31,323 nt of DNA from a virus, in IMG/VR virus record IMGVR_UViG_3300010151_000081, positions 1-31,323 of that record; one strand, given 5' to 3'. Below, in pieces: positions 9,934-28,409 of the stretch. The notes under the pieces were generated by a model that did no database searches, was not told where the DNA came from, and worked only from the letters and a program-made list of their open reading frames with translations. A program made the position numbers and the translations under genes. Position 1 is the stretch's first letter; every line of letters starts with the position of its first letter.

Positions 9934-11721
9934 ATGTCCAAGAAGAAGCGTTCCTTCAAGGCGATACTGGAACCCCGAATAGACCCCAAGACAAAGAAGA
10001 TGGATGTGGGTGGGTTACTGATACCACCAACAAGTGTCTTGACAGGATTGTTGTATGGTTTCGCGCACCATAAAGCCGTTCGGGCAAGGGAGTTTTATTT
10101 CTGGCGCATCTGCGATGAACTTTGGAACCACCCAGACCTACCGGAAAAACTGATGGTCAAACACCTGTGGGCCGAGCAGATGATCCGCGCAGCGTTGAAC
10201 AACAAATACCTTTCCATTGGCGGGTCCGCTTCATCCGGCAAGAGTCACACGATGGCGGCATGGGGAATCGTGAATTGGTTGTCACAGCCGAGGGACACCT
10301 TAGTCCTGATGACATCAACCACGTTAAGGGAAGCGCGTAAGCGTATCTGGGGTTCCGTGATCTCCCTGCTTTCAGTCATCGAAGGTGCCCCCATTCGGGT
10401 ACGTGACTCAATCGGAAACGCTAGTTACGTGGATGAGCGTGGGCTGCTTATTGAAAGAGCGGGACTGTCCTTGATCGCGGCAGAGAAATCTAAAACAAGA
10501 GAAGCAGTCGGCAAATTCATCGGGATAAAGCAAAAAAAAGTGATCCTTTTGACCGACGAGATGACGGAATTGTCGGAGGCCATTCTCCAAGCGGGTCTGT
10601 CGAACTTATCCAAAAACCCAGAATTCCAGTTAATCGGATTGTCGAACCCCAACAGCCGCTTCGACGCTTTCGGGGTCTGGTCGGAGCCAAAAGATGGCTG
10701 GGATTCAGTGGAAACCAACGTGGACGATACTTGGAAGACCAAGTGGGCTGGCCGCTACATCCGACTGGACGGCGAACGCAGCCCGAACATTCTGGCGGGT
10801 AGAACGATTTATCCGTGGCTACCAACCCAACAAAAAATTGACGAGGACAAGGCTTTGCTGGGCGAGGAGTCCCGAGGCTATATGCGAATGGTCAGGGCGG
10901 TATTCTTTGATTCCGATGAAACTACCGGAATCTACAACGAGACTGAACTGACCATGAGTGGTGCTTTACAGCAGGTGGATTGGCAGGGCGAACCCACGAA
11001 AGTGGCGGGGGTGGACCCAGCATTCACCAACGGCGGCGACAGGACCATATTATACACAGCGACAGTGGGTTATGATAAAAACGGTCATTACGTTATCGAA
11101 TTCGGGGAAGCCCTTAATTTGAATGATGACGCTACTAATAAGGCCGTTCCGCGCACCTATCAGATTGTGCGGCAAATTAAGGAAAAATGTGAGAAGCTAA
11201 AAATCCTTCCGGAAAACGTCGCGGTCGATGCGACCGGAGCGGGGCAACCCTTTTGTGATGTGTTGGCAGGCGAGTGGTCAAACAGGTTTATGCGGGTTGG
11301 TTTTGGGGGCCGCGCCAGCGATAAACGGGTCAGCGCCAACAGCCAACTCATTGGTGAAGAACTATATGTGAACCGAGTCTCCGAGCTTTGGTTCGTTGGC
11401 AAAGAATTGATGCGGACGCGCCAAATCTTCGGGGTCAGCACCGATCTGGCCAGCGAGATAACCAGCCGCAACTACGATATGATCAAGAGCGGGACTCTGC
11501 GGGTTAAGGTAGAATCGAAGCCTGAGTTTAAGGCTCGCTTTGGACGCAGCCCCGACCTCGCGGACGCCGCATTTCTGGCCCTTGATTGTGCCCGTCAACG
11601 CCTTGGCCTTGTGGCGGTGGACCCGCCCGAGAAAGGGGACAAGAACTTCAAACGACCCCCCAAGACAATCAAGCAGTTAGGGTCCGCTTTACAGAACTCC
11701 GAGGCCGTTTTGCTGGATTGA
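9934..11721 (+). CDS. terminase large subunit
   Basis: A 595-residue packaging motor. The ATPase has a Walker A-like G-G-S-A-S-S-G-K-S at 96-104, a Walker B V-I-L-L-T-D-E at 203-209, and a coupling motif L-S-N-P-N at about 236-240. The C-terminal RNase H-fold nuclease has Asp361 in G-V-D-P-A, Asp432 in V-D-A-T-G and Asp541/Asp544 in D-L-A-D-A. ATP hydrolysis drives DNA into the procapsid and the nuclease cuts concatemers. The length is typical. The ATG has no Shine-Dalgarno site. The next genes on the strand are not a portal and capsid pair, which is the usual order. Confidence 0.96.
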   Translation: MSKKKRSFKAILEPRIDPKTKKMDVGGLLIPPTSVLTGLLYGFAHHKAVRAREFYFWRICDELWNHPDLPEKLMVKHLWAEQMIRAALNNKYLSIGGSASSGKSHTMAAWGIVNWLSQPRDTLVLMTSTTLREARKRIWGSVISLLSVIEGAPIRVRDSIGNASYVDERGLLIERAGLSLIAAEKSKTREAVGKFIGIKQKKVILLTDEMTELSEAILQAGLSNLSKNPEFQLIGLSNPNSRFDAFGVWSEPKDGWDSVETNVDDTWKTKWAGRYIRLDGERSPNILAGRTIYPWLPTQQKIDEDKALLGEESRGYMRMVRAVFFDSDETTGIYNETELTMSGALQQVDWQGEPTKVAGVDPAFTNGGDRTILYTATVGYDKNGHYVIEFGEALNLNDDATNKAVPRTYQIVRQIKEKCEKLKILPENVAVDATGAGQPFCDVLAGEWSNRFMRVGFGGRASDKRVSANSQLIGEELYVNRVSELWFVGKELMRTRQIFGVSTDLASEITSRNYDMIKSGTLRVKVESKPEFKARFGRSPDLADAAFLALDCARQRLGLVAVDPPEKGDKNFKRPPKTIKQLGSALQNSEAVLLD

Positions 11722-11774: not shown

Positions 11775-12194
11775 ATGGGTAATACTTTTTTTCCTGACTA
11801 TGGCAGCTATGACACGGGGCACCCCCTGTTGGATATAATTTCTGGACGCGCAAAGAAAAGAGAAGAGGAGGAGGAGGAACGAGATCCGTTTGATCCAGAG
11901 GATTGGGTCAATTTTGGCGTGGCACCACCTGCTGCCCTGCCCGAAGCACCCGCCGCTGCTGCACCTGCTGCACCTGCTGCACCTGCTGCACCTGCCGCAC
12001 CCGAAGTAAGGACGTTGCAAAAAAGAGAGTTAATCAACAAAGAGCGGCAGAAAAAGAAAGAAGCTGAGGATAAAGCTAAAGGTGCAGCACCAGAAAAAGG
12101 CCGTGGAGCGGGTGGGGGTCTATGGACCGGAGACCTTCAATCTGGTGGGTTCGGCACAGGCCGTCGAGTAGGCAAAAAAGGGTGGGATGATTAA
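11775..12194 (+). CDS. Ala/Pro-repeat, low-complexity protein of unknown function
   Basis: A 139-residue protein starting at the ATG at 11775. The open frame extends back into the terminase gene, but that part reads as an out-of-frame shadow. The N-terminal 30 residues have some order (G-N-T-F-F-P-D-Y-G-S-Y), followed by an acidic run of Glu at about 32-37. Next comes a tract of Ala-Ala-Pro repeats near residues 60-76, a Lys/Glu helix, and a Gly-rich tail ending W-D-D. It looks largely disordered. Place and composition suggest a small virion or scaffolding-associated protein. No family is recognised. Confidence 0.62.
   Translation: MGNTFFPDYGSYDTGHPLLDIISGRAKKREEEEEERDPFDPEDWVNFGVAPPAALPEAPAAAAPAAPAAPAAPAAPEVRTLQKRELINKERQKKKEAEDKAKGAAPEKGRGAGGGLWTGDLQSGGFGTGRRVGKKGWDD
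11958..12002 (+). repeat. five tandem 9-bp units encoding Ala-Ala-Pro
   Basis: Four exact copies of GCTGCACCT run from 11958 to 11993, followed by a variant copy GCCGCACCC to 12002. They stay in frame and give a flexible Ala/Pro linker. Copy number is likely to vary by slippage. Confidence 0.9.
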
Positions 12195-12227
12195 ACCCCC
12201 GCAATCGATTACAACTAAGATCAAGTT

Positions 12228-13967
12228 ATGGCAAGCGGACGAAGACAAAGACGTAGAGGAAAGCCCCCAGTGGGGCCATCAAGAAGACCAGCAGGGCGCG
12301 GCCCCTCCGTGGGGCCAACACCACGTACGGGGCCAACACCACGTACGGGGCGTCCGAGTGCGGTGAGAGTGCGGACGCCTGCCCCGACGCCTGCCCCGAC
12401 GCCTGCCCCGTCCAGCACACCAGTGCGGCGGGGGCGTCCAGCAAGAATGCGTGCGCCTAGGCGTGTACCCCCAACGGTTAAACCCCCTAAACTCCCTAGT
12501 GTGTGGTCAAAAGTTGTTGGCAGAACACCAGCAACGTCAACTTTGGGTAAGTATGGTCAAAAAGCAGTGGGGAAGGTGGCAGTGCCCCTCCACATTGGGA
12601 CAGAGGCCCTCTCCGCAGGAGAACAAACAATCAGCCCAGAAGCCCGTAAAGAGGCCGTAGCAAAATACGGCACAGACTTGGGGACTTCTGGTAACGTAGG
12701 CCGCGCTCTTAAGGGTGGGTTTTTAGACCCTGCCCGTGCAATGTCCGCGTATTACCAAGGAATGTATCAGGTGCCGGGTGCTCTTTACACTGCACTTAAC
12801 CCTGCACAATATGCTGGTAAGGCGCAGCGGCAGTACTGGGCGAGTCGGAAAGCCGAGTTTGAAAAGAGCGCCCGACAAAGAGAGTCAAAAAAACTAAAGT
12901 CCTTTGGGGATGCCCCGCGTGAGTTTTCCCCCCTGAAAGTAGATCGGTCTGACGCAGAGTATTTCTACGGTCGCCCCGATGCTGTTGGTGAGGCTGACAG
13001 AAGCAAGGTCATGGAGAGGGAGCGCAGGAATGCAGAAACCCAAGGTAGAGAACCACGCTCTTGGGAAAAGATGCAAGGATCGCCCGACAGATATGATCGG
13101 GAGGCACACCTATATTGGACCGACGAGGACCGTGCCACATACGCGGAGATGGCCAAGAACAACCCCGACAAAATTCGCGGGTGGTTTGATACAGACAAAA
13201 GCGGCACGATTGACGCAAAGGAGCGAAAAGCTATCTTTGATCCTAAAGTTGGGTTTAAGGCGCAGGTTAAACAAGAGGTTAAACAAGAATTCGATGACCA
13301 CCTCCGCGACCTATGGTTAGACGCCGAAGCAGCAGTCGAAGCGGAAGACGCCGCCGAAAAGAAGGCACAGCATCAATGGGACCGCGAAATGTATGACTTT
13401 GAGGGGGAAATTCTGGAGGAAGAAGCCCAAAGGGAAGCCGAAGAAAAACGTAAAACACTGTTAAAGCAACAGAAGCGGCAAACGCGGAAAGATGCCACAC
13501 AACTTAAAAAAGACCGCATCTTGTTTGCCAAGGGTCTTGAGGGCGACTTGGGCTACAGTGACACTCCCAACAGTGCGTTCCAGAATCCGGAAACACGGCA
13601 GCGCATTATGGAAGAAGCCTACGCACGCGCCGAAGAACTTAATGTCAGCAGACCCCAACTACGCAAGTTCCTTGAAGACAAGGGGCTGCTGGACAAGGGC
13701 TTCAGTGAATCCTATGAGGACTTCCACAAGCGCACCACTGCTGGTGGCGGCTTACGGACAGGCAAGGTTGGCGGTCGAAGAACTGTCTCAGCACCCAAGC
13801 GCGAAGGGGGTGGGGTAAAGACGGAGGCTGATATTGCGAATGAAGAAGATCGGCGGCGTTATGCAATATGGTTGTATAATGAAAGGCTTAAGGATCAGCA
13901 GAAGCCTCAACAAAGGTTTGTCCAGACACAGCCGAAAAGCCATTTTCCAGCCGCGCCGCCACAATAA
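12228..13967 (+). CDS. large helical protein with an EF-hand calcium loop, putative virion protein
   Basis: A 579-residue protein. Residues 1-85 are Arg/Pro-rich with tandem repeats and look disordered and very basic. Residues 100-200 hold a Gly/Ala and Tyr-rich region. Residues 205-320 are charged helix. Residues 321-332 read D-T-D-K-S-G-T-I-D-A-K-E, a complete EF-hand calcium loop with ligands at positions 1, 3, 5, 7, 9 and 12. Flanking residues fit the entering and exiting helices. Residues 345-435 form a long charged coiled coil. The C-terminus is Gln/Pro-rich. It lies between two likely virion genes ahead of the giant gene. No known phage family is recognised. The weak start region (CTAAGATCAAGTT) is no strong ribosome site. 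Confidence 0.75.
   Translation: MASGRRQRRRGKPPVGPSRRPAGRGPSVGPTPRTGPTPRTGRPSAVRVRTPAPTPAPTPAPSSTPVRRGRPARMRAPRRVPPTVKPPKLPSVWSKVVGRTPATSTLGKYGQKAVGKVAVPLHIGTEALSAGEQTISPEARKEAVAKYGTDLGTSGNVGRALKGGFLDPARAMSAYYQGMYQVPGALYTALNPAQYAGKAQRQYWASRKAEFEKSARQRESKKLKSFGDAPREFSPLKVDRSDAEYFYGRPDAVGEADRSKVMERERRNAETQGREPRSWEKMQGSPDRYDREAHLYWTDEDRATYAEMAKNNPDKIRGWFDTDKSGTIDAKERKAIFDPKVGFKAQVKQEVKQEFDDHLRDLWLDAEAAVEAEDAAEKKAQHQWDREMYDFEGEILEEEAQREAEEKRKTLLKQQKRQTRKDATQLKKDRILFAKGLEGDLGYSDTPNSAFQNPETRQRIMEEAYARAEELNVSRPQLRKFLEDKGLLDKGFSESYEDFHKRTTAGGGLRTGKVGGRRTVSAPKREGGGVKTEADIANEEDRRRYAIWLYNERLKDQQKPQQRFVQTQPKSHFPAAPPQ
12311..12346 (+). repeat. two tandem 18-bp units
   Basis: Two exact copies of an 18-bp unit (GGGGCCAACA then CCACGTAC) encode Gly-Pro-Thr-Pro-Arg-Thr repeats in the disordered N-terminus of the EF-hand protein. 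Confidence 0.9.
12377..12412 (+). repeat. three tandem 12-bp units encoding Thr-Pro-Ala-Pro
   Basis: GCCTGCCCCGAC is repeated three times, the last copy with one change. It encodes a Thr-Pro-Ala-Pro linker just after the previous repeat in the same gene. Confidence 0.9.
13188..13223 (+). other. EF-hand calcium-binding loop within the 579-residue protein
   Basis: The twelve codons give Asp, Thr, Asp, Lys, Ser, Gly, Thr, Ile, Asp, Ala, Lys, Glu. All positions diagnostic of a canonical EF-hand (Asp1, Asp3, Ser5, Gly6, Ile8, Glu12) are satisfied. It is a single copy, with helix-forming sequence on both sides. Confidence 0.8.
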
Positions 13968-13970
13968 GTA

Positions 13971-15086
13971 ATGGCCACCTTTAACCCTGTTACCCCCGAT
14001 TCACTTTACGGGCAGTTGCAGCCTGAGACCTTCAGTGCTGGCATGAGGGGCGAACACTTTGGCCCTGATGTCGCGGCCCTGATGCTGCCCGAAGGGGCGT
14101 CCCAGACTGAAGTGAATCGCGCCGTTGCGGGTTACCAGCAGGACATCCTGCCCCAGCAGCAAGCCTTGGAACAGGCACGGGCGAGACAGGACAAGCAGAC
14201 GATGGAACTGATGAAGTTCCGGATGGCGCAGGACTCGCACCGGATGGCACTGCGTTCGGCTGACCTCTCAGCCAGAAAAGCCCAATTTGAGTATCAAAAA
14301 ACCATTACGGACGCTAATCAGGAAGCCAGCATTATGCAGCGTATGCCGATAGTCATAGACCAGTTGGATGTGATTCGCCGTGATCCAACATTAGATCACT
14401 ACCAAAAGTCCAGTGAAGCCGCACGACTACAGGGATACTACGCGACTCAGATTGCAAAAAGCCCTGCCTTAAAGGGTCTGTTCGATTCGTGGCAGGTTTC
14501 CAACGCAGCAGAAAGAGCAGGTGAAGCGCAGGAATTCCAGAGAGGCTTCCAACTTGGCCAGCAGGGATACGCCCCTGACACCACAATGCCCGAATTTGCA
14601 GCAGGGCAACAGGCCAAGAAGAGAGCGACCATTGCAAAAGAGGGCCGTGACGACCAGATAAAGAAACTTAATGCCGAGTGGGAATACCTTGATGGTCTGG
14701 AGAAGCGGCTCGATGATCTGGACACCATGTATGCTGCGGCTGATCCTGTGACAGACCGCCCCGAAGGTCTTACACTTTCTGATGATGGCACACTAAAAGT
14801 TGATCGCACCATGCCGAAGGTCTACACGCCAGAAGCGCAAAAAGAAGCTGTTCTTATTGCTAGAAGGATTGGAACGCATTCGGGCATGACGCAGCAACAG
14901 ATTGAGGAACTCGTCAAGGGGGCCACTGACATGCCATCCTTTATTCCGCTCCTGAAGAGCGGGCTTTGGGATCTACGCAACCGTAACTACGAGCAGAAGG
15001 GTGCTTTATTTAATTACGGTCCTACAGGTGGCGCAGCAAGCCCCACCGCCCCAAGCATTGGTAGCTGGGGTGCTCCATCTACTTAA
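13971..15086 (+). CDS. Gln-rich helical protein, putative virion or internal protein
   Basis: A 371-residue protein that starts 3 bp after the stop of the EF-hand gene. Residues about 55-130 are a long Gln/Ala/Met-rich helix, 160-245 is another charged helical stretch, and 255-330 looks like a small mixed domain. The C-terminus is Gly/Ser/Pro-rich. No catalytic motif or membrane segment is visible. The all-helical, Gln-rich composition and its place directly before the giant gene resemble internal virion (ejection) proteins of podophages, but no family match can be claimed. Confidence 0.75.
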   Translation: MATFNPVTPDSLYGQLQPETFSAGMRGEHFGPDVAALMLPEGASQTEVNRAVAGYQQDILPQQQALEQARARQDKQTMELMKFRMAQDSHRMALRSADLSARKAQFEYQKTITDANQEASIMQRMPIVIDQLDVIRRDPTLDHYQKSSEAARLQGYYATQIAKSPALKGLFDSWQVSNAAERAGEAQEFQRGFQLGQQGYAPDTTMPEFAAGQQAKKRATIAKEGRDDQIKKLNAEWEYLDGLEKRLDDLDTMYAAADPVTDRPEGLTLSDDGTLKVDRTMPKVYTPEAQKEAVLIARRIGTHSGMTQQQIEELVKGATDMPSFIPLLKSGLWDLRNRNYEQKGALFNYGPTGGAASPTAPSIGSWGAPST

Positions 15087-15125
15087 GTAAAATCTCCTAA
15101 AAATACATACCCAAGTCTTACTGCT

Positions 15126-18100
15126 ATGCCAGAAGAACAGTTTAATCCATTGGATGTCCTTGAACGTGCGGAATCAATTTTCCCGTCCGGACCAGCCGCA
15201 GACCAGAAAATCGACGTTTCCAGTTACGATGACTGGATTACCGCCAAGGACATTCAAGACCCCCTTGAGGGACACCTTGGGTATGGTGACTATCTCCGTG
15301 AGGAATATGTAAAGGCTGACGCTTACAGCAGCGGGGTCGAGCAGACGATCCAGAACGAATTTGGTTCTGCCCTTGTCCAGAAGGGCCTCCTGACTAACGA
15401 GAACAAGGACGAGATTTCCAGTCGGATTGATGCCCACAACCAACCTACTTTTGAACAGAAGGTTCGGGACATGGTGGCCCATACGGGGCTTGAAAAAGAT
15501 GACTGGCACAACGGGGTCGCTTATCTGAACAGCAGAGACACCGCTACTCCGGAAGAACTGGCTTTAATAACCGAAAGAGCCGAGGCGTCTGTTGCCAACA
15601 CGCGCAACAATATCGTGCAGGCTAAACTCGATGGGGGAGAAATTGCTTTCGGGCGGTTCACCGATGCGGACGGCAACAGCTTTGTAAAAGCGGGGGATCT
15701 TGCGCTTGCGATGCCGTTGCACGCCGCGCTCCGCAAATCGCAGGAAGCTGGTGGCGGGGTAAACATGACCGATGCACTAAGCATTAAGTCCACCGGACTA
15801 ATGGATGTGCAGGAAGGCATGAGCGCCCCCCGCTTTAAACTTATTCAACTGAGTGAGATCGAAAAGCTCATCCATTCAGAGGTGAAGAACAACCCGAATT
15901 TTTCCATTCAGGTGGAAGCCTTGGGCAAGAGGATGGCAGAAAAGGATTATAGTTCTTTTGACCATTTTGAAGAAGGATTCCGTAAGCACGTTTCCATGCC
16001 CGTAAGAAAGTTCTTTGAAGGTGTAATCGGGACGATCTCTAATCCGGACCCAATGGGGACAGAACGCGAAGAGGCCGTGGACAATGCCATGTCTCAGGGC
16101 ATTGACGAAACCGTTATGCACCTAGCGCATAAATACAATAAGGACCCAGACGCAGTTAGGACTGCGCTTCAGGAAGTTGTTGTGAACAACGCCCCCATGA
16201 AGGTTTTCAAGGATGAAGACGATGTGGGGAAGAACATTCGCATGGACGGCTACGGACTCCCTTATGTCCCAGCGGCTGTAAAGTTGAACGACGATCTTTT
16301 TGATTCTGCGCTTGAAGCTAGGGCAAATATTTCCGCAGCCACCAAGGAAGCCATGCGGACTGAGCGTGATGCTTTCCTCACAAATAACTTTGTTGAGATC
16401 AGCAAAAAACTGACAAATTCAGAGCTATCCAAAAAATGGCTGGATCACCTTAACGCGGGAAGATCAAAAAACATTAAGGATAGGGACATCCTGTTGGCAT
16501 TCACATCGAACGAAGATAACCGGACATACGCGGACACTATCTTTGGTGACCTTGACCTTGGGTGGAAGGATCTCTACAGGCCGTTCACTTCTGCGTTTTC
16601 TACTGTGTTTGCTCTCAGTGGTGCCGACTGGGCAAAAGAACACCTTAAGGATATTGCGGAGGACAACAACCAGAGACGGGAACTCGCAGAACTTTTTGGT
16701 GGTAAACTGGGCATGACCCAAGACCTTATCAAGTTGGCCCCTGAAGTTACGGTGGACATTGCTGCCACCGCCTTGTTGTCAAAGTTCGGTGGCCGCGCCG
16801 CCGCTACTTCACTGGCGGCAACAAAGGCTCCGTTATATGCCACCATGACCAAGAAGGGCGTGCTAAAGGCTTTGACCACAAATGCCTTTAGGCGCAAGGC
16901 AGGACAGGGAACCGCAGACCTTGCCGAGAACCTTGCGGCACAGAATCTAATCCGGAACGCAACAAGTAAGACGGCACTCGACGCGCTGGAGGCTTACAAC
17001 AAGGTGAACCTTAGAGCTATTACGGTTACTTCTATCGGGCTTACTGCGGCGAACCGATCTGCTGGTGCGACCTACGGCACGGTTTACAACCAGATGCTGA
17101 AGTCCGGCTCGACCGAAGCAGAAGCCCACGACAGGGCACTTGGCACGGGCATGGTTGCAGGAACTGTAACTGGTTTGGTTACAGGGACCTTTTCCGCTTT
17201 CGGAATGGGGGGCTTGGAAGACGCCCTTCTCAGGGGCATGTCCTACAGGAATTTCAAGGACATAACCGCCCGTGTTGTCCAGAAAGCCGACCACGTTTCG
17301 CTGGATGGGGTTTCAGATGCAGTCCTGCAATCTGCAATCAAGGAATCCGCTAAGTCGCTTTTGCGTAAAAACTTTCTCGGTAAGGGTGTTCTCAGGGCGG
17401 GTGCCCATGAATTTGCGGAAGAGTCCATTGACGAGTTTATAAATACGTTCGTTACCGATGCTGGTCTGGAGCAGGACACCCCGATCTTTGACCACATGAA
17501 GCACTCACTTTATGCAGGTGTGCTTGGCGGCATCATGGGTTCTGCCGCACCTGTGGTTGCTGCGGGGGCTAGGAGAGTTCGTCCCGACCGGATGCAGGAA
17601 ATCCAGCAAGCACAGGCTTACGAGGCTAACCTTATTACTGATATTACAAAGCGTCTTAAGGAGTCGAACAGTGAGATCACGGCTAATGTTGTCGGGGACT
17701 TGCTTCGTGGAGACCTTTACACAATGCCCGAACGGGGTGCCTTAACCGAAGAAGACGCAGACGCTGAAACCCTTGCCGAAGTTACAGTAGTTGACGAAGA
17801 ACAACTGGAAGAAGTACTTGCCGCGTTACGGGATGTGTCCCCTGAAAGTATTCAGGAAGAGATTGAAGCCGTGATGGGTGGGCGGCACCCTCAATTTGAT
17901 CGTTTCGACCCCGTTACGGGCAAACTTGATGAAGACGGCTCAGTGTTCGTTCTCGATGAGGATGGCGGTATTATTTACACGGACGAGCTTATTGATGACC
18001 TTGAAACAGATGACCCCAAGCTCCGCGAGATCCTAGAAATCAATCCCCGACTGCTGACTATGGATCAGTCTTTATGGGAATCTTACGATCCTGAATTTGC

Positions 18101-21100
18101 GAACCTTGTAAAAGAACGGTTCAAAAAAGATAAGGACGGCAATCTGGCTACGCCCCTCACAGAAGAGCAACAAAACTGGGTAGACGCAAAATTACAGGAG
18201 TTTGATGTAACCCAACAGAAGCTCGCTAAACAGCTAAAGATTAAGAACCCAACTTTTGGTCCGCAGTCACTTAAGGACTTAGGCTTAACCAAAGACCAGT
18301 ATTTTGAGATAGACAGGATTCGGATGGAGCGAATCATTCCGAAATGGCCTTGGCAGGGCGTAAGCCTTGGAGGCACAAGATTTAAAAATACCAAGCCTGT
18401 AAGTGAACAAGGGTTGGATGACGCCCTTGAAAGGGTAACCAAGTTTCAGGTTATTAGCACTGCAACCTACACTACACAAAATGAGGTCCCCTTCGCGGTG
18501 GGGGCCAACGCACAAAGAACAGTTGCTGCTGACGGCACGGTCACGGACACCATTTCTCGCGGTTACTTCAGCACCCGAGCGGAAGCACAAAAAGTGGTTA
18601 ACGCTGTGGGAGATACTTTGGGCATAAAGTCTGAGATCAAAGAGGTATCTGTAGTTACAAAGAATAAAAAGAGGGAAGAAGTAGGGAAGGTCGAAATAGA
18701 GCAGGTTACTAAATACCACGTTTGGATAACCAAGAAGGCCCTGCCAGAAGGAGAGGTAGAGGAAGTTGTAGCGTTGGCTCCGATGCCAAAGGTTGATGAC
18801 GAAATCAAGTTTACGTTTACAGGCAAACGGGGTGCTCCAGAAGGGCGAGGATTGGTCACAGCTATCGATAAAAAAGCCAAGAGCGTTTCTGTTATTGAAG
18901 AAGGAGACGATTTTGAAATCGAAGTAGACCAATCTCAGATCGTAACCGATGCCGAAATAGCCAAGGGGGCAGCTAAGACAACTAGAAAAAGGACCAAGAA
19001 ACCCAAGGCCGAACTTGTTGGCACCTACGACACGCCAGCGGAAGCCAACATGAAGATGGAGGAGCTTCGGAAAGAATTTTCCGAAGAACAGGCTGACATT
19101 GAGGTTAAGTCAGAAACAACAGACCGGACTGATTTCTCAAAAGTCACTTCAGGGGACGTTCCCGTATTTGAAGAAGGTGGTTTAGAAGAACGCACTGAAG
19201 CAGAAAGCGAACTCCACAACAAGATCCTTAACGGGATCAAAGACCTCGACCCGTCTGTCAAAGTTCGTGACGGCAAAAAACCTTTGCTTACTTTCAAGGA
19301 CGCAAAGAAGAAGCTGGGGGAACTTCTGGCCGCAAAGAATTCCAAGGAGGCAAAAGCAGAAGCCAAGGAGCGCAGGACGGCCTTGGAGGAAATTGAGGCC
19401 ACTTACGAAAAAGCTATTGCCAATGCTGATTTTGAATTGGAAACCGAAGCAGACACCGATGCTGCGTGGCACGCACTCCAAAAAGCAATGGCGCTCAGGA
19501 CTCGTCTTGAGGCTTTGACTAAGCTGGAACAGACAGGCAAGGTTAAGGCCACTCTCAAGGAAGCGCAGAAAGCCCAAGCCAAGGGAACTCCGCTTCTTGT
19601 AAAGGGCAGGGGCAACACACTCAGGGCGGCGGCTATTGTTGCAGGTAAGGGTGGGGCGCTGAAACTTAAGACCCTTACAGGGAAAAATAATAATCCCATT
19701 ACGCCCGTTGATATAAACGGGAACCTGTATCTGGTTACCCATAAGACTGACTCTGTAACTGGCCAGAAGGTGTGGCACGAATTCGGGCGTCAGGATGTTG
19801 GGGTCAACTACAACACCAAGACAAAATTTCTCCAGTATCTTGAATACGGACCTAAAGATGCACCGTCCAAGATGCCTTGGGAGAGCCTTCGCTTAACCGC
19901 CGAGGAAAGCGCCGAGGTTGGAGCCATAGCTTATTACGGCTTGCCCCCATCTGGATTATCTCGAACCAAGAGATTTGGGATTACCAAGCAGCGGAAAGCT
20001 AAAGGGTTCTACCAGAACCTTAACAGGGCAATAACGAAGAGGATCTATCAAATGTATCCTGTGCGGGCTGTTAGCAGGCCCGTTAACGGCAGCGTAGTTA
20101 CTGCCACGGATCAGGTCACAGGATTTTCACCTTGGGCTGAAGTAAAATCACCAGCAGGCAAAGTAGTTAAGGGTAAGAAAAGAAAAGATCCAAACCTGCT
20201 TGTGCAAAGCAGATACAGACCAAAGGCGTTTGTCCACCGAAACGGTGTGGGGGTCTTTGACAACGATCCTGTCGCCATGTCCGTGTTGATGGACAACAAC
20301 CACCCCATTATCATCCCCGACGATTTTACTGGGCGTATCAACACGGCGTTCCGCTACGACCGGATTGATGGAGACTTGGTTATTCACGATATTATTGGTG
20401 TTGGGCCGAACGGCGTCTCGCAGTCAATGAAGCGGAAAAAGGAAACGACCACTCCGTTTTCCAGAACCGCGATGGATAAGGAAGTAGGATTCCTTGGGTT
20501 GTTCAAAGCCCTGTCTGCATTCCGGAATGACGCGACGAATAAAACTGCGGAAGTCGAGAACCCAAATGGCGCAGGCATTACGACTGTAGAGGATCTCCTC
20601 AACAACCTTAACGATATTATTGATAATGCGCGTAAGGTTAATGTGGAGGAGAAGCATCTTAGGTCCGATAAGAAGCGCATAGCTGGGGTGAAGCTTGGCG
20701 AAGATGCTACGTTGGGCGATCAGCAAGACGCTCTGGAGTCGATTGGGTTTTCCAGCAAACGAGCAGCCGCCAAGATAGATGAGATAAAAAATGAGATACG
20801 CATAACAGAGTATCAAATCCTCGCAGCCGCAACAGAGGAAGACAGTGCTAGGCTTAAGAATGAGCTTGCCGGAAGACAGGCCGCGCTCCAACGAGCCATT
20901 GATGATTTCAGCAACACTGTAGTTCCAGCCGCACAACTTCTAGCTACCGTTGACGAGAACGTGCAGGCCAGTCTTGACCGCTTCAGGAAAGTCGAAAGTG
21001 AAGCAAACAGTTTGCAGCGGCGGCTTGACGCCACAGACGAGACTAAAAAAGTAGAGGACTTAGGTAAGAATAAGAAGGTGCAGCGGCTCGTTAAGGGTTT

Positions 21101-24100
21101 GGGCGATCTCAGGGCACAACTGAATGAGAACCCAGAAAACCAAGACTTGGTGGATAGGCTCGCCGCACTGGAGAAGAAGGCAAAAGAGGACATTAAATAC
21201 CAAGAATACGAGGCCGCGAGCAAGGCGTTAGCCGACCTGTATACCAAATCACTTAAGACGGATGTTGTTGGTCAACTGCTGCGCGTGCAGGAAAGGCAGA
21301 CGATGATGCTCGAAGGTCTGCACCGCTCTGTTCTTGCAAAAGAAAAACTCATTGCGGGTGGGTCCGTTGCTGCGACCAGAGATCCGTTTGCGGCTAAGGC
21401 GTATCTGGATCGCATCCTCACATCCCGAAGAGGCGGGAAAATTGAAGAAGACTTTATTGGTGACGCCGAAGCCGCACTCCGGACAGAGTATGAATTACAT
21501 ACCTTGATGTTCCAGATACGTCAGGACATGCGCCCCTTTGTTGATGAGGATGGGAACCTTAGAGAATCGAAGATGAACAAAGCGTTTTCGCTACTGTTCA
21601 GTAGGATTAACCATAAACTTATTGCGGGGCCAACAGCGAAGAAGACGGCCAAGGGAGCCATCCACAAGGAAGCAAAGCAGGAGTTTGCGGCGGTCCTGAA
21701 CAACCTTGCCGACTTGGGCGTCGATAACGCAGAGGTAAACTACGTTGAGGTTTACCGCCAGTTTATCGAAAAGCTGTTTATCAACGGCCCAACTTACTGG
21801 GCCAGAGGTGACACCCTCCCGTCCTTTATGGATGTCGGGCAGCGAGTAGCGCGTAAGGTGATTCAGCAACAGGCGCGGCGAAATACTCGCGGCATAAACA
21901 AGCAACTCTACGGAGAAGACTCGACTCCCTATGATAAAATCCAAGAGACCCTTTCGGAAGAGGAAAGACTGGATGGTGAGGACAAGGGGCAGGCTTTGTT
22001 CTTCAGGCACTTTATTGCCAACGACCTTAACCAATTCGAGTTGACCGAACTGCTGGAGCACATTCAGGCTGATGCGATAAACATTCTGGAGCATAATCCA
22101 AAAATAAGGCGAGCTTGGGACAAACTACTTAAGAATGGCCCCTTCAAGTTGATGGATGATTTTTCTCCATCAGAATTGAGTGCCGCCAGTGCGTGGGCTG
22201 AAATGGTTTCGTATGTCCGACAAGCCAGTATCGGTGAGACTACAGGAGTCGAGAGCGGTGCGGGTCCTGCGGGTCCTGCGGGAGTCGAAGGCGGTGCGCC
22301 TGTAACTATCGACGGGAAAGTGGTGCGGAGAAAAGCGGCCACAGGAAGTGTTGGCCCACTAATTTTTCTCAAAGAACTGGAAACGGGGTCCACTCCCGAG
22401 GCGCAGGCAATCAAGAGGGCCTTCCGGATTTACCGCATGGCTGATTTCCATTTTACCCAAGACCCGTTCAAGACTGCTAACGAAGAAACCATTGCCGAAC
22501 TTAAAGAAATCTTGGTTGACCCCGAAGTCAGCGCCGAAGCCAAGTCAGCCGCCGAACAGCAACTTAGCGAAGTTAATGACGCGCTTGAATACACGACTTG
22601 GCTCAAAGACGAAATACGTTTCCAGTTGGCGCACAGGGTAGATGATGATCCGGATCTGTCTCCCGAACACAAAGCTACAATTCTTAACTTTCAAGCACAG
22701 AATGTGCATAAGGTTATCAATGAGATGCAAGCACGGAGCTACTTCTCCAAGTCTCAATTCGCCAAGGCAATAGACATTGCAGTCGCAGAGAACGTAAACA
22801 ACAGGGTTGCTAGGAAGTTAGGGCTGCTAATAAAAATTACCGAGAAGAACCCAGATGTTGTTCTGGAGGCGATGGACAAAATTTACAATGCTGCTCCAGC
22901 GGGTAGTGATCTTGTAAATGCCAAAGAATACCAGCGCATGATGGCGCGGCTGTTTGCTTCGGATCAACCCAATGCTGCCTTTGTTCGGTCTGTAGTTTTC
23001 AGAATCGGCGCAGTCAACAACTCGTATGCGAGCAAGACAGAAGTTCTTGCGGACGGCAAGGTTGGCGTGACGATCAATACAAGGGGTTGGAATGGACGAG
23101 GGCTTATGGATACGGTCATCCGTTCCTTTGCACACGCTAAGTTGCTCGACACCCTGAAAAACTCCGAGCTTACCGAGAGCCAGCAAAAAGCAAAGGGCAA
23201 GATTGAAGAAACGATTAAGGCTTTGCGTGGCAAGTTCGGTGGTAACACCCAGCTTGTAATGCGGTCTGGAACAAAATCACTTAACGCTTTCATTGATTAC
23301 TTCTTTGACTCGTCTGATTTCCAGTCGGCATTGAAGGTGCGACTGAGCAAGAAAGGTATGCCGAGCTACGACGCTACCCTGAACAACCTGCTCGCCTTGA
23401 TAGACTCAAGAGCGGAAGTCTCTGGAAACAAGGGATTCCAGAAGCACTTTAAGGATATGATGGATCTTGCTGGGTTCACCTACTCGTCGCCCCTCACCCC
23501 CGATGGGGTTCGGGACGAGGCGGTCGCCCACGCGAGCCACGCCCTTAAAGAGAACGAGAGTATCCACAAAATCCTTGGCTCCCGATTCAGGAAGCAAGGT
23601 GACGAGAAGGGTCTTACTGAGATTGGTAAAAAAGACCTTACTGAGCGTGCCAACCTCCTTGGCAGGTTGGCAATGTCGAGAGTGCCAGCGGAAATTGAAG
23701 TTGTGCTGGCCGCGCTTCCAGACGGCAGGGTGGCGCTTTTTGATAGGGTTTCCGGTAAACTTCTTTTTGACCCCCGAAACGCAGCCATCGCCACACTGGA
23801 ACGGGGCATGGATAACATAAGCGCACAGGGTATGGCGGGGCGTGTCATCAGGGAAGAGATGGCACACAAGTCGGCCAAGGCCGCGCTTACAGCGGGAATG
23901 GTTAAAGCAGTTATGGATGCTTCGTCCGATGTGGACTTCCAGAACGACATTGATAGCTACTACGGGGAAGGAACACCCGAAGCTGAAGAAGCAGCGAAGC
24001 GCCTGAAAGATCCTAACGAAGCCTTTAAGGAGAAAGAACTTCTCGTTCAGGAAAGGTTGGCCACATTAACGCAGAAGATAATGGACAACCAAACCACTGA

Positions 24101-27100
24101 GGAGGCAGAGGCATTTTTCTCTGCCAACCCCAGCACGTTGTCCGTAGCTATCTTCTACATTAAGAAATTCATTAACGGTTTTATCGGGGCATTCAGGGAT
24201 GGCACCAAGGGGCTTAAGCCAGAAGAGAGGATTGCAGTAAACCGTATGCTCGTTGAACTACGGGGAATGGAGATGGGCTACCGTATGCCACGGCACATGG
24301 ACCCGAAAGCAGGGCCAGAAGAAACAACGGTCCAGTTTCTGGAGACGGCTGGTTTTGAGCCAACCGAGAAAGACGATACAATTAAAGTCAATAAGACCAC
24401 GCTTCCGCAGAAGATGCCATCCGGCCTTGAGGCAGGCGCAGGTTCCGCAGAAAGCAAGTTCGCTGTCGAAGGCGCTGAAGACATTGCTTACATGGAAGCA
24501 GTTAAGGCAGGCGACACTAAGGCAGCTAAGGAAATACTGGATAAGGCTACAGACGGAATCACCGTTGCGTCCTTCCGTCAACTTGCCCACACCGTGACCT
24601 TGCAGCGCATGGGGGTCGGCTCTCTTCTCAGGGCGCAACAGGAGTATGCTAAGAAGCAGGACAGGTTGGTGGAACTGGAACCTGCTGAAGATGAAACGCC
24701 GTCTAAGGAACACGCAGAACTCAAAAAGTTCTTTAAGGCCGAAGTCGATCTTCAACAGAAGGTGTTCGATCTGTGGGAGGAGAAGACAAAAGTTGGCCCC
24801 AAGCACCTTGAAATAATCGTCCGCGACAAAGACGGTAACCCTGTCCCCTTAAGTCAAAGGTTAGGATTCGACGTTAACGTAGCCAAGGAGGAAGCCCCGC
24901 CTGAAGTGTTGAAGGCGAGGATACCAATCGAAGAATTCGATGAGCGTGGTGCGCCTATTACTGGAGCACCAAAATTCCGTGAAGAACTAAGTTTGTCTGA
25001 GCTGCAAAGTTTACTTGAAAATGCGGAGGAGGGTTCAGATAGAATCCCACTGATTGAGTCGGCTATAGAACGCATCGAGAGTGAAATGCGGGACAGGGAA
25101 AAAACGAGCCGCCCACAGCCTGATGGAGACGCATTACTCAAGATGTTTGCTTCGGAGTTAGGGCTTAAGGTTGATGCCAACATCGACAAAGGTGGAGTGC
25201 TCTACTCTGGATTCCGTGCAAAGCATAAGATGGGGGACACGGACTTCGACGCATTCGATTTTGATTACACGAAGTTCTTTGCACAGTTCGACATGCCTAT
25301 GCTTGAGGTCGATGAGCTTAACGTCGAGAAAGGGATCAAAGGGTTTATGAAGAAACACCTTGTCGGGTTGTTGCAGCCCGAGATCCATCACTGGATGAAG
25401 CACCGACAGGCTCTTAAGAAGACCATTGCAAATGAACTTAAGATGATGCAGGTGCAGTTGCGGGGCCTGATCGAACAGGTCTACCCCGATGGCACCGTGC
25501 CCGTGGATTCCGATGGGTTGACCATCATCCAGAAAGCGACTGGCTCGACAGAGGGCGTGTTCCTTTCCGATGCCGTAGCGGAGCGGCTCGATAATGAATA
25601 CAACGATGCGAAGAAAGCAGCGTGGTTGAACGCGCATACGGAATCCCAGCAGGATGCGGCCGACATAAAGCAGATCCAGAAAGACCAAAAGGAAGCAATC
25701 AAGGTGGCCAAGGCCAAGTATGACGCGGACATTAAGACCGAATTGATAAAGCGTAGGGCTGAGATAGTAGCTGAACGGGATGCTGCTCGCGCACGAATCG
25801 CGGTTGATTCAAGAGAACTGTTGGAGGTTCTTCTTAAACTGCGGGACTTAGCCGATAAGTTTACGACCAAGTTGGAAGCGATTCATAAAGTGTCTGGTAA
25901 GTATGATGTGAAGATCAGCGATAACAACGGCATCTACCTGACGCGAACATACAAGATGTTCTTGGACGTTGGCTATGCTGATGCCGTCCGGAAGAATCCG
26001 GAATACCAAGAGGAACGAGACGAGGCCATTAAGTTCTTTGAGGAAGTGCATCTTGAAAACGCGGAGAACAAACTTCGCATGGAGCACCCCGCCAAGACAG
26101 ACGCCGAGATCAAACAGATGGCCAAGGACAGCATGGTCGGGCAGAGGATCGGTGAACGGGCGCTTGAGGCCTTCATCAGTTCATACGAGATGAAGGGTGA
26201 CGGGGACGCATACTTCTCTGCACAGGAGTCAATCAAATCGATGATTGATAACTTCAAGGCCAAGAAGAACATCCCTGAACCATTGCGGAAGATTCTGGGT
26301 GAGCAGAAGGATACGACTACACCGGACAACCTGCTCCGCACGATGATGACGGTGGGTTCGATGGCGGCGAACCAATCGTTCTTAAACGCAATAGCAAAAT
26401 CTGGGTTAGACAATGGCTGGCTTGTTACCGAGGAAGAGTTCAACAGCGACAGGTTGAAATACACTGACCCCGATACGCACAAGGAATGGCAACGTGTTGT
26501 CCAACATACATCAGACAAGGAATACAACCCGCTCTCCGGATTGTATGGTCGCCCCGAACTGGCGGGGGCCTTCACAGAAACCTTCAAGGAGTATGGGACA
26601 TCGTATGCAAATGACTCCGAGAAACTTCTGGCTGGGTCGTTCAGGTATTTCCAGAAACTTACTGGTTATTCGATGGCATCCAAGACACTTGGTAGTACGG
26701 GTTTCTACCTGAGAAACGGTCTGAGTAACATCCTGTTCTTTGGCCCGATGCAGATGGGTGGGATTGGCAATATGTTCTTAGCCAAAGACTACTTGCAAAA
26801 TTTCTTGTCGGAGGTCAAACGAGCGCACAAGGGAGACAGAGCTAAACTCGATGCTGAACTAACGAATTTACGTTCGCTCCGCATCATTGGTGACGAGAGC
26901 AGGACCAACACAATGCGTCAGTTGATGCTTGGCGAGAGGTCGCTGGAGGATGTCGAAACGGAATTCCTTAGTAAGATGGAAGAAGCCGAGGGTGTCGTGG
27001 GCAAAGCGAAGGAGAAGGCAGAGGGGGGTCTTGAATACCTTTCCCGATTGGCAGCGGCTATGGATGCCTTCTACAAGATTGCTTACTTCAAACATGAACT

Positions 27101-28409
27101 TGGGGTTTTAGAGGAAGCATACGCCAAGGAACTGGCAGACGGGAGCATGACCCCAGCACAGGTCGAGCAGGAGGCCGCAAAGAAAGTCCTTCGCACATCG
27201 CAGGCTTACTCCGAAGCACCGCCGTTGGTGCGTGCGCTCCAAAGATCCGTGTGGGGTTCCTTCTTCGCACCGTTCGTTCGCTTCAAGGCTGACGTAATCA
27301 GGGTGATGTATAACACCGTTAAGGTTGCACTGGAGGAGCGAGCAAGTGGTAATGCAGTTTTGATAAAACGCGGTAACCAAAGGTTGCGCGGGTTCACATT
27401 CACGATTGGTGGCCTGTCATTCCTTGCACCACTGCTCCTGAGAATGATCTTCGGAGTGGGCGAAGAAGAAGATGAGGCATACAAGGCGGCGGGTCCGAAG
27501 TGGGCGCGGCACAACACGCTGTGGTATTTCCGCAAAAAGAATGGTGAGCTGAACGCAGTAAACCTGACGTTCCTTAATCCGTTCTCAACCGTGATGGACG
27601 GGGTGAACAGCGCCGTCTTGGGTGAGTTCTTCGGTGGAGGTAGTGTGGAGAACGCGATTGAGGTTGCCTTCTCTGCGATGTTCGTTGACCAGTTTCTTGA
27701 TGACCAGATATTTTCCAGCGCCTTGAAGGAAGCCTTTGTTACAGGGATTGATGAGACAACAGGTAAGCGGGTGTGGACTGAAGGAGTTGATAGGGGGACA
27801 GAAAAAGTTCTTAAACAACTTTGGCACACTTGGGAAAAGGGTTTCGAGCCGAGGACATGGACGAAGCTGGAGGCCGCATGGAAGGCCAGCAAGGGAGACT
27901 ACACCGAGTTAGAATACAGCCCGATGGGTATTATTGGCAATGAGTTCAAGGCAGTGCGTTCACGCACAGTAAAACCTGACCAACTCTTCAAGCAGTATAT
28001 CTTCAAGATGGAACAAGCACGGTCACAGGTCCGTGAGAAGTTCAGACCGATCTACAATAAGAATGTATCAGTCTCTGAGGATGAGATCATGGACATCTAC
28101 GAAGAGGTTTACAAAGACCTGAAGCATCTCAACAAGGACATCATCCGGAAGATGGGGGGCTTTGAAGGGCTGGGCTTATCTAAAGGTGACATTTACAGAT
28201 TAGCGCGTGGCTCCGGTGGTGGGCCGAAGATGGGCAAGCGGAGAACAGAGTTGCTCATGCAGGGCTACATGGAGAAGCCCGTCCTGTCTGCTAACAAGGT
28301 GGCCATAATGATGCAGGAAGCTGAGGCAGATCCGAAGATGGCCGAGCGACTGAGGATCTTTGCTGAAGCTATGAGTAGGCATGACCGCTTCAGCAAGATC
28401 GTTGATTGA
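15126..28409 (+). CDS. giant 4427-residue polyvalent or ejection-type virion protein
   Basis: A single uninterrupted frame of 13.3 kb. Order by residue: about 1-480, charged helical region; 534-820, Gly/Ala-rich hydrophobic segments around a conserved-looking A-H-E-F-A-E-E-S at about 760; 830-1050, acidic linkers; 1143-1330, two similar G-x-Y/F-x-T-x-x-E-A units around a small beta-rich region; about 1510-1770, a beta-rich domain; 1885-2060, coiled coil; 2374-2392, a G-P-A-G-P-A-G linker; 2909-2914, R-E-E-M-A-H, like a decayed zinc-protease motif; 3480-3600, long coiled coil; 3830-4200, a C-terminal domain with hydrophobic segments (notably 4090-4112). No RNA polymerase or lysozyme motif was found. 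It resembles the large polyvalent proteins of phages. Placement after the terminase suggests a virion protein injected with the DNA. No Shine-Dalgarno site precedes the ATG. Confidence 0.85.
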   Translation: MPEEQFNPLDVLERAESIFPSGPAADQKIDVSSYDDWITAKDIQDPLEGHLGYGDYLREEYVKADAYSSGVEQTIQNEFGSALVQKGLLTNENKDEISSRIDAHNQPTFEQKVRDMVAHTGLEKDDWHNGVAYLNSRDTATPEELALITERAEASVANTRNNIVQAKLDGGEIAFGRFTDADGNSFVKAGDLALAMPLHAALRKSQEAGGGVNMTDALSIKSTGLMDVQEGMSAPRFKLIQLSEIEKLIHSEVKNNPNFSIQVEALGKRMAEKDYSSFDHFEEGFRKHVSMPVRKFFEGVIGTISNPDPMGTEREEAVDNAMSQGIDETVMHLAHKYNKDPDAVRTALQEVVVNNAPMKVFKDEDDVGKNIRMDGYGLPYVPAAVKLNDDLFDSALEARANISAATKEAMRTERDAFLTNNFVEISKKLTNSELSKKWLDHLNAGRSKNIKDRDILLAFTSNEDNRTYADTIFGDLDLGWKDLYRPFTSAFSTVFALSGADWAKEHLKDIAEDNNQRRELAELFGGKLGMTQDLIKLAPEVTVDIAATALLSKFGGRAAATSLAATKAPLYATMTKKGVLKALTTNAFRRKAGQGTADLAENLAAQNLIRNATSKTALDALEAYNKVNLRAITVTSIGLTAANRSAGATYGTVYNQMLKSGSTEAEAHDRALGTGMVAGTVTGLVTGTFSAFGMGGLEDALLRGMSYRNFKDITARVVQKADHVSLDGVSDAVLQSAIKESAKSLLRKNFLGKGVLRAGAHEFAEESIDEFINTFVTDAGLEQDTPIFDHMKHSLYAGVLGGIMGSAAPVVAAGARRVRPDRMQEIQQAQAYEANLITDITKRLKESNSEITANVVGDLLRGDLYTMPERGALTEEDADAETLAEVTVVDEEQLEEVLAALRDVSPESIQEEIEAVMGGRHPQFDRFDPVTGKLDEDGSVFVLDEDGGIIYTDELIDDLETDDPKLREILEINPRLLTMDQSLWESYDPEFANLVKERFKKDKDGNLATPLTEEQQNWVDAKLQEFDVTQQKLAKQLKIKNPTFGPQSLKDLGLTKDQYFEIDRIRMERIIPKWPWQGVSLGGTRFKNTKPVSEQGLDDALERVTKFQVISTATYTTQNEVPFAVGANAQRTVAADGTVTDTISRGYFSTRAEAQKVVNAVGDTLGIKSEIKEVSVVTKNKKREEVGKVEIEQVTKYHVWITKKALPEGEVEEVVALAPMPKVDDEIKFTFTGKRGAPEGRGLVTAIDKKAKSVSVIEEGDDFEIEVDQSQIVTDAEIAKGAAKTTRKRTKKPKAELVGTYDTPAEANMKMEELRKEFSEEQADIEVKSETTDRTDFSKVTSGDVPVFEEGGLEERTEAESELHNKILNGIKDLDPSVKVRDGKKPLLTFKDAKKKLGELLAAKNSKEAKAEAKERRTALEEIEATYEKAIANADFELETEADTDAAWHALQKAMALRTRLEALTKLEQTGKVKATLKEAQKAQAKGTPLLVKGRGNTLRAAAIVAGKGGALKLKTLTGKNNNPITPVDINGNLYLVTHKTDSVTGQKVWHEFGRQDVGVNYNTKTKFLQYLEYGPKDAPSKMPWESLRLTAEESAEVGAIAYYGLPPSGLSRTKRFGITKQRKAKGFYQNLNRAITKRIYQMYPVRAVSRPVNGSVVTATDQVTGFSPWAEVKSPAGKVVKGKKRKDPNLLVQSRYRPKAFVHRNGVGVFDNDPVAMSVLMDNNHPIIIPDDFTGRINTAFRYDRIDGDLVIHDIIGVGPNGVSQSMKRKKETTTPFSRTAMDKEVGFLGLFKALSAFRNDATNKTAEVENPNGAGITTVEDLLNNLNDIIDNARKVNVEEKHLRSDKKRIAGVKLGEDATLGDQQDALESIGFSSKRAAAKIDEIKNEIRITEYQILAAATEEDSARLKNELAGRQAALQRAIDDFSNTVVPAAQLLATVDENVQASLDRFRKVESEANSLQRRLDATDETKKVEDLGKNKKVQRLVKGLGDLRAQLNENPENQDLVDRLAALEKKAKEDIKYQEYEAASKALADLYTKSLKTDVVGQLLRVQERQTMMLEGLHRSVLAKEKLIAGGSVAATRDPFAAKAYLDRILTSRRGGKIEEDFIGDAEAALRTEYELHTLMFQIRQDMRPFVDEDGNLRESKMNKAFSLLFSRINHKLIAGPTAKKTAKGAIHKEAKQEFAAVLNNLADLGVDNAEVNYVEVYRQFIEKLFINGPTYWARGDTLPSFMDVGQRVARKVIQQQARRNTRGINKQLYGEDSTPYDKIQETLSEEERLDGEDKGQALFFRHFIANDLNQFELTELLEHIQADAINILEHNPKIRRAWDKLLKNGPFKLMDDFSPSELSAASAWAEMVSYVRQASIGETTGVESGAGPAGPAGVEGGAPVTIDGKVVRRKAATGSVGPLIFLKELETGSTPEAQAIKRAFRIYRMADFHFTQDPFKTANEETIAELKEILVDPEVSAEAKSAAEQQLSEVNDALEYTTWLKDEIRFQLAHRVDDDPDLSPEHKATILNFQAQNVHKVINEMQARSYFSKSQFAKAIDIAVAENVNNRVARKLGLLIKITEKNPDVVLEAMDKIYNAAPAGSDLVNAKEYQRMMARLFASDQPNAAFVRSVVFRIGAVNNSYASKTEVLADGKVGVTINTRGWNGRGLMDTVIRSFAHAKLLDTLKNSELTESQQKAKGKIEETIKALRGKFGGNTQLVMRSGTKSLNAFIDYFFDSSDFQSALKVRLSKKGMPSYDATLNNLLALIDSRAEVSGNKGFQKHFKDMMDLAGFTYSSPLTPDGVRDEAVAHASHALKENESIHKILGSRFRKQGDEKGLTEIGKKDLTERANLLGRLAMSRVPAEIEVVLAALPDGRVALFDRVSGKLLFDPRNAAIATLERGMDNISAQGMAGRVIREEMAHKSAKAALTAGMVKAVMDASSDVDFQNDIDSYYGEGTPEAEEAAKRLKDPNEAFKEKELLVQERLATLTQKIMDNQTTEEAEAFFSANPSTLSVAIFYIKKFINGFIGAFRDGTKGLKPEERIAVNRMLVELRGMEMGYRMPRHMDPKAGPEETTVQFLETAGFEPTEKDDTIKVNKTTLPQKMPSGLEAGAGSAESKFAVEGAEDIAYMEAVKAGDTKAAKEILDKATDGITVASFRQLAHTVTLQRMGVGSLLRAQQEYAKKQDRLVELEPAEDETPSKEHAELKKFFKAEVDLQQKVFDLWEEKTKVGPKHLEIIVRDKDGNPVPLSQRLGFDVNVAKEEAPPEVLKARIPIEEFDERGAPITGAPKFREELSLSELQSLLENAEEGSDRIPLIESAIERIESEMRDREKTSRPQPDGDALLKMFASELGLKVDANIDKGGVLYSGFRAKHKMGDTDFDAFDFDYTKFFAQFDMPMLEVDELNVEKGIKGFMKKHLVGLLQPEIHHWMKHRQALKKTIANELKMMQVQLRGLIEQVYPDGTVPVDSDGLTIIQKATGSTEGVFLSDAVAERLDNEYNDAKKAAWLNAHTESQQDAADIKQIQKDQKEAIKVAKAKYDADIKTELIKRRAEIVAERDAARARIAVDSRELLEVLLKLRDLADKFTTKLEAIHKVSGKYDVKISDNNGIYLTRTYKMFLDVGYADAVRKNPEYQEERDEAIKFFEEVHLENAENKLRMEHPAKTDAEIKQMAKDSMVGQRIGERALEAFISSYEMKGDGDAYFSAQESIKSMIDNFKAKKNIPEPLRKILGEQKDTTTPDNLLRTMMTVGSMAANQSFLNAIAKSGLDNGWLVTEEEFNSDRLKYTDPDTHKEWQRVVQHTSDKEYNPLSGLYGRPELAGAFTETFKEYGTSYANDSEKLLAGSFRYFQKLTGYSMASKTLGSTGFYLRNGLSNILFFGPMQMGGIGNMFLAKDYLQNFLSEVKRAHKGDRAKLDAELTNLRSLRIIGDESRTNTMRQLMLGERSLEDVETEFLSKMEEAEGVVGKAKEKAEGGLEYLSRLAAAMDAFYKIAYFKHELGVLEEAYAKELADGSMTPAQVEQEAAKKVLRTSQAYSEAPPLVRALQRSVWGSFFAPFVRFKADVIRVMYNTVKVALEERASGNAVLIKRGNQRLRGFTFTIGGLSFLAPLLLRMIFGVGEEEDEAYKAAGPKWARHNTLWYFRKKNGELNAVNLTFLNPFSTVMDGVNSAVLGEFFGGGSVENAIEVAFSAMFVDQFLDDQIFSSALKEAFVTGIDETTGKRVWTEGVDRGTEKVLKQLWHTWEKGFEPRTWTKLEAAWKASKGDYTELEYSPMGIIGNEFKAVRSRTVKPDQLFKQYIFKMEQARSQVREKFRPIYNKNVSVSEDEIMDIYEEVYKDLKHLNKDIIRKMGGFEGLGLSKGDIYRLARGSGGGPKMGKRRTELLMQGYMEKPVLSANKVAIMMQEAEADPKMAERLRIFAEAMSRHDRFSKIVD
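22246..22297 (+). repeat. imperfect 16-bp duplication flanking a Gly-Pro-Ala linker
   Basis: GAGTCGAGAGCGGTGC (22246-22261) recurs as GAGTCGAAGGCGGTGC (22282-22297), with two GCGGGTCCT units between. It encodes a short collagen-like G-P-A-G-P-A-G linker inside the giant protein and probably marks a domain boundary. Confidence 0.75.

Follow-up and report, generated by a model that had tools for sequence, protein, structure and literature searches.

A giant protein with a conserved C-terminal module and two degenerate zincin-like domains, a probable virion protein of a podovirus-like phage

The window, as we call the whole 31,323-base stretch of viral DNA analysed here, encodes a protein of 4,427 aa in a single frame without interruption, from ATG to stop (15126..28409; this and the other features from the terminase gene rightward lie on the plus strand). 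Since the parts of this giant follow the same order as those of N4 gp50 and no polymerase is detectable in it, we propose as the probable reading that it is a virion protein of a podovirus-like phage, packaged via its C-terminal module and ejected with the DNA in the manner of gp50, with a different and changeable cargo. The giant also contains two zincin-like metallopeptidase domains, which the first reading of the sequence missed because their motifs are degenerate in the window. That two tandem metallopeptidase-like active sites have apparently been lost step by step in one family of giants is, in our view, the most testable new point.

The giant gene and its genomic setting

The open reading frame is a genuine gene under purifying selection, and its length is far above chance expectation. 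Full-length colinear frames are found in three other lineages, with 4,480 aa in L002 and L003, 4,680 in L004, 4,158 in L007, 4,274 in G004 (L030) and 4,242 in G005 (L033). Divergence between the window and L002 is 0.178, 0.124 and 0.456 at codon positions 1, 2 and 3, with a dN/dS of 0.118 overall and of 0.06-0.15 across all segments; between G004 and G005 the ratio is 0.165, with all segments below 0.3. The frame kept in relatives and these ratios bear out the description of an uninterrupted 4427-residue frame in the earlier note, and its remarks on texture were likewise right, as residues 481-870 are Gly/Ala-rich, the variable parts are charged and a hydrophobic segment lies at residues 4092-4112. 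The share of the window given there as 42% was measured as 42.4%, but it reflects the size of a record that is probably a fragment; the giant takes up 24% of a related contig of 58,465 bases and 19% of one of 68,155 bases.

The gene stands in a rightward block that opens with the terminase large subunit TerL (9934..11721; phrog_2, 8.5e-14) and continues with a small Pro/Ala-rich protein, a 579-aa protein (12228..13967), a 371-aa protein directly upstream of the giant (13971..15086) and the giant itself. The 579-aa and 371-aa proteins are conserved neighbours with no known homologue: the order TerL, gene of ~600 aa, gene of 349-371 aa and giant recurs in L004 and L007, and in L022 a 633-aa and then a 370-aa gene lie immediately upstream of the giant. 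No homology was found between these two upstream genes and N4 gp51/gp52, JC1 gp67/gp68 or phi18:3 gp120/gp121. A leftward replication block in the window encodes a primase-like protein, DNA polymerase A, an exonuclease, a Holliday junction resolvase and an HTH protein, and an amidase-type endolysin is encoded at 402-977. A search of 50,697 phage records matched TerL once, weakly, and a late gene of G002 not at all, and the group is therefore far from described phages; a scan of cellular genomes for relatives found none and yielded no host assignment. The presumed virion genes of G002 (L027:5449-15336 and L026:99-4147) have almost no PHROG matches and constitute a poorly sampled structural module. 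It was also observed that tandem repeats of 9-18 bases occupy 11956-12410, in the small gene after TerL and the 5' part of the 579-aa gene, where they encode Pro/Ala/Thr-rich stretches.

This setting bears on whether the protein belongs in the particle at all. The giant could be an intracellular polyvalent or regulatory protein that is made during infection and left unpackaged, its C-terminal module having been reused outside the virion, and the location of its gene near the replication block as well as TerL would agree with such a role. However, all relatives seen have the gene behind TerL in the rightward block, and a protein sharing its C-terminal module, gp123 of phage phi18:3, is a virion protein by MS/MS, so that we regard an unpackaged giant as improbable.

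A leader of 20 bases abuts the start codon of the giant (15106..15125, within about 15102-15125), occurs once per genome and is identical in the window, L004 and L007; the match to L007 is 20/20 while 65% of the third codon positions of the gene differ. It contains no Shine-Dalgarno sequence and could possibly be a promoter or a translation element. Many gene starts in the window have no clear Shine-Dalgarno sequence, an observation that may bear on the host.

Conserved ends, variable middle and the C-terminal module

Mapping of three-way identity between the window, L007 and G004 per 60-residue bin indicated that both ends of the giant are conserved (residues 1-870 and 3331-4427) and that the middle is mostly variable, with conserved islands at ~1500-1790 and 2881-3060. 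The N-terminal region (residues 1-870; 15126..17735) has 37-68% identity per bin and is nearly ungapped, and the highest conservation in the whole protein is reached at residues 481-840. Within it, the helical part formed by residues 481-870 (16566..17735) consists to 24% of Gly and Ala and has about twice the density of small-xxx-small patterns of the other parts of the giant; a membrane role for these residues is plausible, and we propose that they form an envelope-inserting segment. An AF2 model of residues 1-870 was too weak to interpret (pLDDT 44), no sequence relation to the NTD of N4 was found (E 0.21), and a PDB profile search with the N-terminus was negative. It had been suggested in the earlier note that the giant is delivered with the genome and combines membrane passage with anti-host activities. 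The virion part of that suggestion gains support from the homology of the C-terminal module and the N4-like layout; membrane passage, the one basis of which is the Gly/Ala-rich conserved N-terminal half, and an anti-host role do not, and no anti-host enzyme was identified by Pfam scans of the whole protein and its segments.

The C-terminal region (residues 3331-4427; 25116..28406) contains a module, at residues ~3590-4304 (25893..28037), which sequence and profile matches place in gp123 of Cellulophaga phage phi18:3 (E 1e-17), ORF31 of Pseudoalteromonas phage Y3 (3e-21) and gp85 of Pelagibacter phage HTVC027P (1e-9), with further matches in Cellulophaga phages phi13:2 and phi19:3. Comparison of the groups by profile gave an E of 1e-36 and a score of 294, compared to 31 for a reversed and 19 for a shuffled control. 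In the phi18:3, Y3 and HTVC027P proteins the module is again C-terminal, and BLAST finds no relation between their N-terminal parts and the giant; that of Y3 ORF31 is ADP-ribosyltransferase-like (E 2e-6, just under the Pfam cut-off). As phi18:3 gp123 is annotated as a virion protein 'based on experimental MS/MS', homology transfer from it suggests that the giant is packaged as well. Via Y3 the module extends to StenR_269 and other phages. The StenR_269 protein (L037:11351-18163), which carries the module and has no Pfam match, is annotated as a 'putative virion-associated RNA polymerase'. The Y3 genome paper classes ORF31 as an auxiliary metabolic gene (PMC11654794), and adjoining it in vB_PunP_Y3 (L009:843-14217) is a 3,421-aa protein with DdrB-ParB, ART-PolyVal, methyltransferase, LPD5 and LPD1 domains.

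More distant kinship of the module is suggestive only: it matched LPD38 proteins at E 3e-4, above controls, and the C-terminus of the N4 vRNAP (C2) at E 1.5e-3 over 47 columns (score 42, shuffle maximum 18). The LPD38 model (PF18857) itself has no match in the giant family, the positive control JC1 giving 8e-37, and the giant is placed outside the LPD38 family. A PDB profile search with the module was negative.

Between the conserved ends lie a charged variable region (residues 871-1480; 17736..19565) that is gap-rich with 3-15% three-way identity, a conserved middle domain (residues 1481-1830; 19566..20615), a second variable region (residues 1831-2520; 20616..22685), the two zincin-like domains and a variable linker (residues 3061-3330; 24306..25115). 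The middle domain has a dN/dS of 0.062 and no Pfam or PDB match, profile search of the PDB included, and is our candidate for the cargo. Neither the complete giant nor its segments scored above chance against Pfam and PHROG, and no characterised enzyme matched it over its full length. The statement that the protein has no lysozyme or polymerase motif holds after the Pfam scans, comparison with the N4 RNAP and a motif B check. These comparisons also address whether the giant might be an N4-type virion RNA polymerase so diverged that its polymerase is unrecognisable in the middle region. An order of parts equal to that of gp50, a first zincin-like domain related to that of N4 and the suggestive match to the N4 C-terminus would all be expected of such a protein, but the middle region compares with the N4 RNAP at E 0.44, the motif B pattern is absent in six of six members, and a middle that is gap-rich and mostly 3-15% identical is unlike a polymerase. 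We consider a hidden polymerase very improbable and, as no RNAP domain was found, place the giant outside the N4 vRNAP family.

The linker preceding the C-terminal module illustrates how such a protein can change. Although the giants of L004 and L002 are 98.9% identical, L004 carries an extra domain of ~240 residues at this place (residues ~3190-3433; L004:19563-20299), encoded by ~737 bases, compared with ~20 at that position in L002 and L003, and flanked by Pro-rich stretches. The domain has no relative in phage records, in IMG/VR outside its own contig, in the PDB or in Pfam, and gain and loss are indistinguishable here. That the domain is present in one of three giants with 98.9% identity shows that entire domains can change in the linker, a point of relevance to how phages diversify what they inject.

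Two zincin-like domains and the loss of their motifs

The first of the two, Z1 (residues ~2521-2800; 22686..23525), is by its profile match a zincin-related domain with motif loss. It aligns with the zincin of the N4 vRNAP with the HEXXH in register (E 1.3e-6, score 52), the shuffle maximum being 25 and the reversed profile scoring 13, and no other part of the giant matched the N4 zincin profile. The match weakens to E 2e-3 with only the three intact sequences, and its support therefore depends on the wider alignment. In the window the motif reads RSFAH (residues 2666-2670; 23121..23135), and NAFIDYF (residues 2720-2726; 23283..23303) stands at the position of the third ligand. For the second domain, Z2 (residues 2801-3060; 23526..24305), the same assignment is made less firmly, from the motif of relatives and a predicted topology. 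Here the window has EEMAH (residues 2910-2914; 23853..23867) followed by QERLA (residues 2975-2979; 24048..24062), which is invariant among the relatives compared and a candidate third ligand. An AF2 model of Z2 from five sequences predicts a helix, three strands, the motif helix and a Glu helix, with a core pLDDT of 58-85. Foldseek with this model returned the minimal archaeal zincins selecase, jannalysin and abylysin as 9 of the first 18 PDB matches, none of them significant, and the best viral structural match was a podovirus 'large polyvalent protein'; a PDB profile search with Z2 was negative. Neither domain gives a Pfam match, and the lack of one to PF18818 (MPTase-PolyVal) in the giant is uninformative, as the same test also missed the zincin of N4 itself. 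An apparent match between Z1 and Z2 over 41-43 columns arose from overlapping slices and was discarded.

Relatives of the window retain these motifs to different extents. G004 and G005 have two intact HEXXH motifs, HELFH or HEYFH followed by QEFVSN in Z1 and HELAH followed by QERLA in Z2, for a chance expectation of ~0.04 per protein; L007 has one, keeping the first (HEAFH, then EEFASN) and having QEIGH as the second; and the window has none, the first His being absent from both motifs in L002 and L004 as well. By parsimony, the catalytic residues were probably lost in the lineage of the window, not gained elsewhere. It has been proposed by Iyer et al. that the zincins of N4-type and polyvalent virion proteins serve in self-processing before packaging, in the head or after injection, or act as effectors (PMC5512222), and the two, one or no HEXXH found in otherwise colinear giants offers a natural series that bears on the self-processing idea.

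The lost residues also argue for a giant with a structural role only: a core, scaffold or tail-tube-like protein that would stay in or on the particle, the zincins being remnants with no role in the host. Consistent with this, phi18:3 gp123 is known as a virion protein and not as an ejected one, and no enzyme is recognised in the giant. Against it, the zincin and middle domains are still under purifying selection, ejection or injection is known for N4 gp50, kin to the giant through its zincin, and for giants of this class (PMC12633501, PMC5512222), and whole-domain change in the linker is easier to reconcile with cargo than with a symmetric structural part. We therefore hold a solely structural role to be unlikely, and favour an ejected virion protein. 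Packaged through its conserved C-terminal module, the giant would enter the cell with the DNA as the large member of an ejection-protein set, its first 870 residues would insert into the envelope of the cell or traverse it, and its middle region would be cargo acting early in infection of the host. In the ancestor, the zincin pair may have cleaved the giant chain or some target as metallopeptidases, and both domains would now be non-catalytic in the window lineage. A bolder version, which we offer only tentatively and do not expect to hold in full, is that the giant is a gp50-like delivery chassis in which the polymerase has been replaced by cargo centred on residues 1481-1830, and that the zincin pair, ancestrally releasing this cargo, was switched off stepwise, so that the cargo is now delivered uncut.

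Comparison with known systems

Among giants of similar size, gp69 of Burkholderia phage JC1, which is DarB-like, has ~4,500 aa, is encoded at the end of a podovirus virion block and was found in purified virions by MS (PMC9144972). The giant resembles it in size and gene position, but has none of the LPD38, LPD3, methylase/helicase and LT-like domains of gp69 detected in it. The T7 gp16-type lytic transglycosylase domain likewise had no Pfam match in the whole giant or its segments. When the Z1 profile was compared with PDB sequences, the best match, which lies downstream of the motif, was gp48 of Pectobacterium phage PhiM1, a tetrameric ejection protein of 1,263 aa (8vb2; PMC11440229), the relation of which to the giant is undemonstrated at a non-significant E of 0.09.

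Polyvalent proteins with MPTase domains share with the giant zincin-like domains, variable domain content and a late-gene setting (PMC5512222), and more than one zincin-like domain per chain is known among them (PMC5512222). They differ in that no second kind of enzyme is recognised in the giant, and that the Pfam MPTase-PolyVal model does not match it. With its zincin-like MPTase domains and its late or virion gene setting behind TerL in one rightward block, the giant appears closest to the polyvalent proteins in the sense of PMC5512222, a class assignment under which multiple enzymatic activities are unproven.

N4 gp50 consists of a membrane-inserting NTD, the RNAP, a C1 zincin and a helical C2 of ~110 kDa, and follows gp52 and gp51 in the order of ejection (PMC12633501); DEV is similar to N4 in this respect (PMC10925440). 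Common to gp50 and the giant are the succession of an N-terminal part, a middle, a zincin and a C-terminus of ~1,100 residues, the smaller genes adjoining, and the relation of Z1 to C1. In contrast, the giant has no detected RNA polymerase and two zincin-like domains, both degenerate in the window; the N-termini are unrelated by sequence and the C-termini suggestively related only.

The phi18:3 protein gp123 (phrog_22602, virion structural protein, Pachyviridae) has 1,935 aa, its N-terminal ~1,150 residues are without BLAST relation to the giant and the module is ~24% identical. The two share a homologous C-terminal module, and gp123 is the MS/MS-verified product of the last gene of the late block in its own record. 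The family described here also ties poorly placed IMG/VR lineages to a virion module verified by MS/MS.
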